Positions 2,427 through 6,382 of a stretch of 42,590 nt of DNA are shown in pieces. Source of the stretch: Thiobacillaceae bacterium (GTDB taxonomy: Bacteria; Pseudomonadota; Gammaproteobacteria; Burkholderiales; Thiobacillaceae). The stretch is taken from the NCBI GenBank assembly GCA_025458005.1, contig JALOTG010000002.1:1-42590 (forward strand). Reading direction: 5' to 3'. The notes under the pieces were generated by a model. It saw nothing but the letters and a program-made list of their open reading frames with translations, was not told where the DNA came from and did no database searches. Numbering within the stretch: the stretch's first letter is position 1; every line of letters starts with the position of its first letter. The position numbers and the translations under genes are program-made.

Positions 2427-3851
<1,425 letters not shown>

Positions 3852-3863
3852 TTCGCTCTCCAT

Positions 3864-3885
3864 AAAAAAATGAACGGGCGCCGTT
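3864..3885 (-). terminator. Candidate intrinsic terminator overlapping the 3' end of the SAH riboswitch
   Basis: On the minus strand AACGG-CGC-CCGUU is followed by CA and seven U residues. The 5' arm is the conserved aptamer 3' segment AACGGCGC. Confidence 0.55.
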
Positions 3886-3949
3886 ACCTCGATGCCCCCG
3901 TCCCGAGCCTGGCCCGCCTTGTGGCAGGTCGCAGCGCCCCTCGGGACGG
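3876..3949 (-). promoter_or_regulatory. S-adenosylhomocysteine (SAH) riboswitch aptamer
   Basis: Minus-strand CCGUCCCGAGGGGCGCUGCGACCUGCCACAAGGCGGGCCAGGCUCGGGACGG...GGUAACGGCGCCC matches the remembered SAH consensus (CCGAGGRGCGCUGCRACC ... CCAGGCUCGG ... AACGGCGC). It lies directly upstream of ahcY. Confidence 0.93.
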
Positions 3950-3963
3950 CGGTCTTCTTGCGA

Positions 3964-3985
3964 CCTCCCCCCGTCGAGGGGGAGG
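3964..3985. repeat. GC hairpin CCTCCCCC-cgtcga-GGGGGAGG between metK and the SAH riboswitch
   Basis: Inverted repeat read directly; related in sequence to the hairpin at 2389-2411. Confidence 0.5.
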
Positions 3986-3994
3986 GGATGCGCA

Positions 3995-5173
3995 TCAGCC
4001 CTGGCGGCGATCGTAGCCCGAGGCGGCGCGCAGCGCGTCCGCCTTGTCCGTGGCCTCCCAGGTGAATTCCGGCTCGTCGCGGCCGAAGTGGCCGTAGGCG
4101 GCGGTCTTGGCGTAGATCGGCCGGAGCAGGTCGAGGGTCTGGATGATGCCCTTGGGCCTTAGGTCGAAGTGCTGCCGCACCAGTTCCTCGATCTGGTGCT
4201 CGGGAATCCTGGCGGTGCCGTAGGTCTCCACCATCAGCGAGACCGGCTTGGCCACGCCGATGGCGTAGGCCACCTGCACCTGGCAGCGGCTGGCCAGCCC
4301 GGCGGCGACGATGTTCTTGGCCACGTAGCGGGCGGCGTAGGCCGCCGAGCGGTCCACCTTGGACGGATCCTTGCCGGAGAAGGCGCCGCCGCCGTGGGGG
4401 GCCGCGCCGCCGTAGGTGTCGACGATGATCTTGCGGCCGGTGAGGCCGGTGTCGCCGTGCGGGCCGCCGATGACGAAGCGGCCGGTGGGGTTGACCAGGT
4501 ACTTGATGTCGCCGTTCAGCATCTCGCGGGGGATCACCGGCTTGATGACCTCCTCGATCACCGCCTCGGTGAGCTGGCCGTGCGAGATCTCTGGATGGTG
4601 CTGGGTGGACAGCACCACGGTGTCCACATGCACCGGCCGACCGTCCACGTAGCGCACGGTGACCTGGCTCTTCGCGTCCGGCCTCAGCCAGGGCAGCCGC
4701 CCGTCCTTGCGCAGTTCGGCCTGGCGCTCCACCAGGCGGTGCGCCAGGAAGATGGGCAGGGGCATGAACTGGGGCGTCTCGTCGCAGGCGTAGCCGAACA
4801 TCAGGCCCTGGTCGCCAGCGCCCTGGTCGAGGAACAGGCCCTCGCCCTCGTTGACGCCCTGGGCGATGTCCGGCGACTGCTTGTGGATGGCCGACATCAC
4901 CGCGCAGTTCTCGGCGTCGAAGCCCATGGCCGGGTCGTTGTAGCCGATGCGCTTGATGGTCTCGCGGGCGATGCTGCCGTAGTCCACCACGGCGTGGGTG
5001 GTGATCTCGCCGGCCAGCACGCACAGGTTGGTGGTCACCAGGGTTTCGCAGGCCACGCGGGCGTGCGGGTCCTGGCTGAAGATGGCGTCGAGGATGGCGT
5101 CCGAGACCTGGTCGGCGACCTTGTCGGGGTGGCCTTCCGAGACGGATTCCGAGGTGAAGAGAAACTCGTTCAT
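3995..5173 (-). CDS. metK: S-adenosylmethionine synthetase
   Basis: 392 aa, [31 protein letters not shown]...[24 protein letters not shown]...[34 protein letters not shown]. Confidence 0.97.
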
Positions 5174-5350
5174 GACTGCTCCTGAAATGACATGGGCCCG
5201 AATTCGCCGGCGTTACCGACTCCGGGCCCAGAGCAGGCGACGCTTTAGCAGTACTTATCGGCATCGGTGTTCGGTGCTTGAAGCCGATCCGCGAGCGATC
5301 CCTGGTCGGGTCGCTTCGTCCGCCCTGCAAGTTGTCCGTTAACTCGGCGG
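5174..5350 (-). promoter_or_regulatory. Long structured 5' leader of metK; candidate SAM-responsive RNA with RBS-sequestering hairpins
   Basis: Predicted leader of about 177 nt. Helices: AGCGACCC/GGG-A-UCGCU (5294-5315), AUCGGC/GCCGAU (5257-5288) followed by AAGUACUGCUAAAGC, GGGCCCG/CGGGCCC (5223-5229 with 5194-5200), and CUGCUC (5231-5236) with GAGCAG in the RBS (5176-5181). Confidence 0.5.
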
Positions 5351-5357
5351 AGACGGC

Positions 5358-5386
5358 ATGCTAGCCTTGCATCCGGCACCGGTCAA
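5358..5386 (-). promoter_or_regulatory. Sigma-70-type promoter for metK
   Basis: Minus strand TTGACC-N17-TAGCAT, read directly. Confidence 0.6.
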
Positions 5387-5491
5387 GAATCCGGCCGCCC
5401 ACCCAGCCATGCCCAAACCGTACCGAATCACGGCCCCGATGTCCTCCCCACGCCCCGCCGCGCACATGCCACGCTCCGCGCGCGCCGCCCG

Positions 5492-6382
5492 ATGCCCATG
5501 AGCCGCCTGGGCCTCCTGCTGCTGCGCCTGCTGCATGCCCTGCTGCCCTACCCGGCCCTCGGCTGGCTGGGCGACCAGCTCGGCCGCCTGCTCCATCGCC
5601 TGGCCGCCGCGCGCCGGCGGGTGGGGGAGATCAACCTGCGCCTGTGCTTCCCCGATCTGGACGAGGCGGCCCGCGCCCGGCTGCTCAAGGCGCACTTCAG
5701 GGCCCTGGGCCGCGCCGCCCTGCAGGAGTCGGTGTCCTGGTGGGGCAGCCGGGCGGAGGTGGAACGGATGACCCGCCTGGAGGGTTGCGAGCACCTGGAG
5801 GCCCACCGCGGCCGGCCGGTGATCCTGCTGGCGCCGCACTTCGTGGGACTCAACATCGGCGGCGTGCGCTTCGCGGCCTATTGCGAGGCGGGCGTTTCCC
5901 TCTACGCACCGATCAAGGATCCCCACCTGGACCGGCTGATGCTGCACGCCCGCACCCGCTTCGGCCGCCAGGAGCTCTACTCCCGCAAGGACGGCATCCG
6001 TCCCGTCCTGCGCGCCCTCAAGCAGGGCAAGCCGTTCTACTACCTGCCGGACATGGACTACGGCGCCCGCGACTCGGTGTTCGTGCCCTTCTTCGGCGTG
6101 CCGGCGGCCACCCTCACCGCCCTGTCGCGCCTGGCCCGAGCCAGCGGCGCGGTGGTGGTGCCCCTGGTCACGCGCCAGACGGCGGGCGGCTACGTGGCCC
6201 GCCACTACCCCGCCTGGGAGGATTTCCCCAGCGCCGACCCGGTCGCCGACGCGCGGCGCATGAACGCCTTCATCGAGGAGCGCGTGCGCGAAATGCCGGA
6301 GCAGTACTTCTGGCTGCACCAGCGCTTCAAGACCCGCCCGCCCGGCGAGGGCGCCAAAAGGAGCCTCTATGCGGGCGGTTGA
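5492..6382 (+). CDS. LpxL/HtrB-family lipid A biosynthesis lysophospholipid acyltransferase
   Basis: MPMSRLGLLLLRLLHALLPYPALGWLGDQLGRLLHRLAAARRRVGEINLRLCFPDL...VILLAPHFVGLNIGG...KPFYYLPDMDYGARDSVFVPFFGVPAATLTALSRLAR...QYFWLHQRFKTRPPGE. Confidence 0.92.
   Translation: MPMSRLGLLLLRLLHALLPYPALGWLGDQLGRLLHRLAAARRRVGEINLRLCFPDLDEAARARLLKAHFRALGRAALQESVSWWGSRAEVERMTRLEGCEHLEAHRGRPVILLAPHFVGLNIGGVRFAAYCEAGVSLYAPIKDPHLDRLMLHARTRFGRQELYSRKDGIRPVLRALKQGKPFYYLPDMDYGARDSVFVPFFGVPAATLTALSRLARASGAVVVPLVTRQTAGGYVARHYPAWEDFPSADPVADARRMNAFIEERVREMPEQYFWLHQRFKTRPPGEGAKRSLYAGG

Follow-up and report, generated by a model that had tools for sequence, protein, structure and literature searches.

A predicted SAM-II-type riboswitch in the leader of metK in a Thiobacillaceae bacterium and other Betaproteobacteria

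The metK locus and its conserved leader

The window analyzed here is a stretch of 42,590 nucleotides from a Thiobacillaceae bacterium, and the features described below lie on its minus strand unless stated otherwise. The methionine adenosyltransferase gene metK occupies positions 3995-5173 (TIGR01034, 620 bits). An SAH riboswitch (3869-3948), located 46 nt downstream of metK and 5' of ahcY, was assigned to RF01057 with 64.5 bits (E 9e-10), whereas at least 37 bits are required for membership. Upstream of metK, the initial annotation had proposed the promoter TTGACC-N17-TAGCAT (5386-5358), which is of the sigma-70 type. This was the sole promoter-like site found within 3700-5600, where shuffled sequences averaged 0.2, and it predicts a transcription start near 5351. 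The metK leader had a folding energy of -73.2 kcal/mol, somewhat better than chance (z = -1.9). The leader sequences named in the initial annotation were all present on the minus strand where it had placed them, namely CUGCUC (5236-5231), GAGCAG (5181-5176), ACUGCU (5252-5247), AGCAGU (5180-5175), AUCGGC (5288-5283), GCCGAU (5262-5257), and the GGGCCCG/CGGGCCC pair. The same genome has a second metK-like gene (L002, G000:C80:5142-6317), about 41-42% identical, which does not carry the leader element.

The 5' end of the predicted aptamer coincides with the predicted transcription start. Its P1 stem pairs UCCGCC (5346-5351) with GGCGGA (5319-5324), and the third (triplex) strand GAGUUA spans 5340-5345. 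The P2 pseudoknot consists of GAC and UUGCAG paired with CUGC-U-AA and GUC. In P2a, the 5' strand GAC (5334-5336) pairs with the 3' strand GUC (5241-5239), and in P2b, the 5' strand UUGCAG (5325-5330) pairs with CUGC(U)AA in the 3' strand CUGCUAAA (5244-5251), which has the core GCUAAA. The L3 linker (5253-5318) carries a lineage-specific two-hairpin insert that includes AUCGGC/GCCGAU. In relatives, this insert ranges from 7 to 125 nt and differs in sequence, mostly forming a different hairpin when it is at least 30 nt long. As the two halves of the aptamer are 66 nt apart in the window, the initial annotation caught the 3' half alone and overlooked the 5' half (5351-5319).

For the comparison among relatives, we sampled the 350 nt upstream of metK at 111 loci, both in the window's family and in other Betaproteobacteria. 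A near-invariant element was found in 87 of these regions, with the consensus [U/C]CGC[C/U]-GAGUUA-n-GACAA-CUUGC-RNGGCG[A/G]-n-AAAUNC-N-GCUAAAGCGU(U)CGCC. The sampled metK leaders of Gallionella, Nitrosomonas, Neisseriaceae, and the Chromobacterium type had no such element.

After removal of the variable insert, 49 dereplicated betaproteobacterial elements were aligned and evaluated against a single specified structure consisting of P1 and the pseudoknot P2a/P2b. Paired cells accounted for 90.4% of the alignment, versus 36-47% with the partners slid. At ten pairs both partners had changed, and the covariation score was 0.280 versus 0.144 in shuffles, a value reached by none of 500. One P1 pair was UA in 25 leaders and CG in 24, never unpaired, and the P2b column A5326-U5250 was AU in 21, GC in 19, and GU in 3, again never unpaired. 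Further key columns likewise held no unpaired cell (P2b, GC 43, AU 5, and UA 1; P2a, GC 36, AU 10, and GU 3), and GAC/GUC of P2a covaried with GRRC/GUUC. On the metK protein tree, four key pairs switched state 9, 12, 4, and 5 times with no unpaired cell, and hence the covariation signal does not reflect one inherited event. Covariation among related metK leaders, on which the initial annotation had let its proposal depend, is clearly present. The leader of metK is a genuine structured RNA with wide conservation.

The covariance model R1 was built from the 49-leader alignment, with the window itself among the training sequences. Of 200 genomes of the order, R1 matched 119 at E<=0.001, with some of the matches not at metK. 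Within the window's family, 94 of 98 near-complete metK genes were preceded on their own strand by the element, at a distance of 51-157 nt. In the window, R1 did not give one match spanning the whole element; it detected two pieces (5304-5353, 42.9 bits; 5233-5289, 25 bits), presumably due to the long L3 insert. In 35 of the 49 leaders, the 24 nt 5' of P1 contained a hexamer matching TATAAT at 5 or more of its 6 positions, versus 3 of 147 control windows. The initial annotation had also suggested that one operon would carry separate SAM and SAH sensors if both switches work, and its placing of a SAM-type sensor upstream of the SAH sensor of ahcY is supported. At 28 of the 87 element-bearing loci, ahcY lay within about 1.5 kb of metK; the combination of a predicted metK SAM-type switch with an adjacent ahcY is therefore not unique to the window. 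The SAH switch was detected at four (L006, L009, L055, L111) of 14 scanned loci with ahcY near metK.

Relation to SAM-II and other SAM riboswitches

A search of 5150-5500 with all Rfam 15 families gave no SAM-family match at E<=10. The window leader thus matched none of the SAM-II, SAM-V, SAM/SAH, and SAM-Chlorobi models in which the initial annotation had looked for a hit, and the SAM-II long loops model gave no match either. Permissive matches in the leader segment to radC, nhaA-II, and a microRNA family were taken as chance. The radC RNA match (5187-5356) lies on the plus strand, opposite the leader, and is probably chance with 23.2 of 40 bits (E 0.013).

Among the metK leaders examined, the best score against RF00521 (SAM-II, also SAM_alpha; Corbino 2005, PDB 2QWY) was 22.1 bits (L071), below the gathering cut-off of 36 bits. 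The RF00521 fold, a P1 stem with an H-type pseudoknot P2, is present in these leaders, with covariation in P1, P2a, and P2b. The RF00521 core is also present, as the third-strand UU, UUGC, and GCUAAA were invariant in the 49 leaders and identical in the alphaproteobacterial SAM-II loci examined. The order of core elements is GAUUUG...CUUGC...GCUAAA in these alphaproteobacterial loci and GAGUUA...CUUGC...GCUAAA in the metK leaders. The SAM-II-like 3' core recognized by the initial annotation was borne out. GCUAAAG was invariant in the alignment, and CUUGC and GAGUUA were invariant or nearly so across betaproteobacterial metK leaders, a conservation beyond chance.

In the crystal structure of SAM-V, the core that binds SAM can be overlaid almost exactly on its SAM-II counterpart, and the SAM site comprises two third-strand uridines, the 5'-strand UU, and the 3'-strand UAAA (PMC6061858). 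According to our alignment, which is not a solved structure, the equivalents of these bases are invariant in the metK leaders except for an adenine-adjacent third-strand G, and the two U of GAGUUA correspond to the SAM-contacting uridines of SAM-II and SAM-V. In nearly all metK leaders, this G takes the place of the third-strand U that faces the adenine-contacting U (U8 in SAM-V), and within the group it is shared by some metZ-type leaders (L122, L129, L131).

Two metZ leaders, L112 and L113, link the metK element to accepted RF00521 members. They scored 45.2 and 40.2 bits against RF00521, above the cut-off, and matched R1 with E values of 2e-5 and 3e-6. Alphaproteobacterial SAM-II was out of direct reach of the metK-trained R1, which scored it at 7.8 bits at best (E = 2). 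Because the metZ leaders match both models, we call the metK element SAM-II-type and consider it probably homologous to SAM-II, while by score it is no Rfam SAM-II member. The gene directly downstream makes SAM, which counts for this assignment; P2a has merely 3-4 bp and is set apart from P2b by unpaired bases, which counts against it.

The metK element shares with SAM-II the H-type pseudoknot, P1, the third strand, the P2b core CUUGC/GCUAAA, the short P2a, and the -10 box before P1, which has the same placement directly ahead of P1 in SAM-II (Corbino 2005, PMC1273637). However, it falls below the Rfam cut-off, has GAGUU instead of GAUUU in the third strand and a different P1 sequence, and harbors an optional L3 hairpin, an RBS hairpin of its own some 60 nt away from the aptamer, and metK as its target. 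Corbino 2005 reported few SAM-II cases beyond the alphaproteobacteria, among them Bordetella bronchiseptica (PMC1273637). With SAM-V (RF01826), the metK element is predicted to share the geometry of the SAM pocket, translational control, and a short P2a, but the Shine-Dalgarno sequence of SAM-V is in or adjoins P2a, whereas that of the metK element is in the distant hairpin, and RF01826 gave no match. The SAM-II long loops family (RF01726) combines the SAM-II core with long loops, yet it comes from Bacteroidetes and marine sequences and was not matched in the window leader. The SAM/SAH riboswitch (RF01727) also has metK downstream, an H-type pseudoknot, and a translational mode, but it is restricted to Rhodobacterales, has another core, and did not match the window leader. 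Finally, the metXZ RNA element (Leyn 2014, PMC4239095) resembles the metK element in its taxa, its methionine genes, and its pseudoknot with an alternative fold, whereas it precedes metX/metZ and has a terminator.

Expression platform and proposed switching mechanism

In the platform, the RBS segment GAGCAG (5176-5181) is masked by the anti-RBS arm CUGCUC (5231-5236), as the initial annotation had proposed. This hairpin is conserved and coevolving, with a mean own pairing energy of -18.3 kcal/mol versus -13.0 (sd 0.42) for species-swapped partners; since the own pairing is far stronger than the swapped one, the hairpin is considered real. In 82 of 87 leaders, the Shine-Dalgarno region pairs with sequence immediately 3' of the aptamer. 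The second anti-RBS segment of the initial annotation, ACUGCU, did not hold up: its own energy was -4.65 kcal/mol versus -4.18 for swapped partners, AGCAGU occurred in just 5 of 49 leaders, and ACUGCU is a strand of aptamer P2b.

A motif GGYNACG(C/U), minor variants included, was found in the platform of 35 of the 49 leaders and is complementary, with one mismatch, to the aptamer 3' end GCGUCGCC. In the window, this conserved and coevolving motif is GGUAACGC (5210-5217), and its partner (5236-5243) is the proposed strand of a SAM-free helix overlapping P2a. The helix, which was noticed and tested in the same leaders, had an own energy of -10.87 kcal/mol versus -9.99 for swapped partners (sd 0.17, minimum of 300 swaps -10.44) and -8.13 for shuffled ones. 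As GCGUC doubles as the 3' strand of P2a, this helix and P2a are mutually exclusive. The sequence comparison suggests that the GCGUCGCC/GGUAACGC pairing (5243-5236 / 5217-5210) is a better-supported competitor than ACUGCU, with coevolution weaker than that of the RBS hairpin. Another candidate for the SAM-free helix, the P1 3' strand with CGCCUGC, reached -14.2 kcal/mol in the window, but its own energy was -12.99 versus -13.05 for swapped partners; due to this lack of coevolution, the GCGUCGCC/GGYNACGC helix is preferred. In a thermodynamic model that includes no pseudoknot energy, the two states were nearly equal (-70.1 and -68.8 kcal/mol), and in the forced ON state of this model GGAG was still weakly paired to the 5' end.

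Eight metK leaders (L033, L035, L036, L041, L047, L072, L082, L091) have a platform in which a U-run follows a GC-rich hairpin, pointing to transcription termination instead of RBS masking. Such terminator-like hairpins occupy the same platform position in some Rhodocyclaceae-type leaders, and thus both control modes may occur.

We interpret the metK leader as a diverged SAM-II-type riboswitch that would act as a translational OFF switch for metK, with an estimated probability of about 0.85. We infer SAM as the ligand as well as the direction of switching. When SAM is abundant, P1 (UCCGCC/GGCGGA) and the H-type pseudoknot P2 would form, with GAGUUA in the P2 groove holding SAM. The SAM-bound fold would lock GCGUC in P2a, and the platform would then form CUGCUC/GAGCAG, hiding the RBS. 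When SAM is scarce, P2a would open and GCGUCGCC would pair with GGUAACGC, trapping the anti-RBS arm in the loop and leaving the RBS free.

The third-strand base beside the adenine, a G and not a U, gives rise to a competing interpretation, in which a SAM-II-like fold has changed its ligand, for example, to SAH or to SAM plus SAH. The third strand reads GNGUUA in nearly all of the 49 leaders, versus GAUUUG in the alphaproteobacterial SAM-II sampled; however, GCUAAA and the two uridines that lie beside the ligand in SAM-V are invariant, the same G is seen in the metZ-type leaders mentioned above, and metK is a natural SAM target. We therefore regard a changed ligand as unlikely. Even less probable is control of metK by a conserved structured leader or protein-binding site independently of SAM binding: it would fit the strong conservation of some platform motifs, but invariance falls on the positions of the SAM pocket, and the sister elements before metZ are recognized as SAM-II.

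We give the least credence to the arrangement in the initial annotation, in which the AUCGGC/GCCGAU helix and an AGCA/UGCU pseudoknot accompany a competition of ACUGCU and CUGCUC for the RBS. All these sequences exist and pair on paper, with -7.7 kcal/mol for ACUGCU/AGCAGU in the window. Nevertheless, the helix and the proposed pseudoknot fall within the L3 insert that varies between relatives, UGCU belongs to the covarying P2b, and the pairing of ACUGCU with the RBS is weak across relatives. The location of the element 3' of the -10 box, together with its covariation as an RNA pseudoknot, also spoke against a DNA operator. The preferred reading remains the SAM-II-type translational switch.

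Related elements and significance

Elements of this kind also occurred away from metK. The leaders of metZ-like genes (L112-L120, L122, L123) match SAM-II, several with terminator-like hairpins. They are likely the metXZ element of Leyn 2014, which would then be SAM-II. In the genome of the window, several SAM-II-like elements lie within 1 kb (L121, G000:C270, at 1440, 1552, and 2290); the second scored 30.6 bits against RF00521, and the 218-aa protein downstream has no Pfam match. In Burkholderiales, R1-type elements precede a small protein (MYDC.../MFDCYLDE...) at L162, L163, L175, L176, L178, L179, L181, and L131, with two elements in tandem at L131. No Pfam family matched the small protein of L162, and a MATE exporter comes next after the small protein wherever the locus is long enough (PF01554 in L162). 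Three loci (L211, L212, L215) from a single family that belongs to the class but not to the order matched R1 with E values of 1e-5 to 2e-4 upstream of a protein of about 105 aa. This protein matches Methyltransf_11 only below the threshold (E 0.065 in L212) and is followed in L215 by a gene that, by sequence reading, is polyphosphate-kinase-2-like.

A more tentative idea, possible but rather doubtful, is that Betaproteobacteria hold a large unrecognized SAM-II-derived regulon. It would comprise the metK subtype with the GCGUCGCC/GGYNACGC switch and relatives, sometimes in tandem, before Burkholderiales MATE exporters and small methyltransferase-like proteins elsewhere in the class, and the ligand specificity of some of these relatives might be altered.

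Leyn 2014 found SAM_alpha confined to Rhizobiales and Rhodobacterales, reported metXZ as a distinct RNA element of beta-proteobacteria, and noted that beta-proteobacterial metK was under no known regulator, attempts to find an element having failed (PMC4239095). A Herbaspirillum RNA survey named the SAH switch and did not mention metK. We found no description of the metK element in the main texts of openly licensed papers, and priority is accordingly not certain.

If the proposed reading is true, the gap in beta-proteobacterial metK control stated by Leyn 2014 (PMC4239095) would be filled, and the reach of SAM-II would go well past detection by the Rfam model. The known members of the class mostly use terminators or direct Shine-Dalgarno occlusion, and the metK leaders would offer a testable expression platform. 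Much of the Betaproteobacteria would then exert direct RNA feedback on SAM synthesis, and this metK feedback would often adjoin a switch that senses SAH and controls the SAH-removing enzyme.
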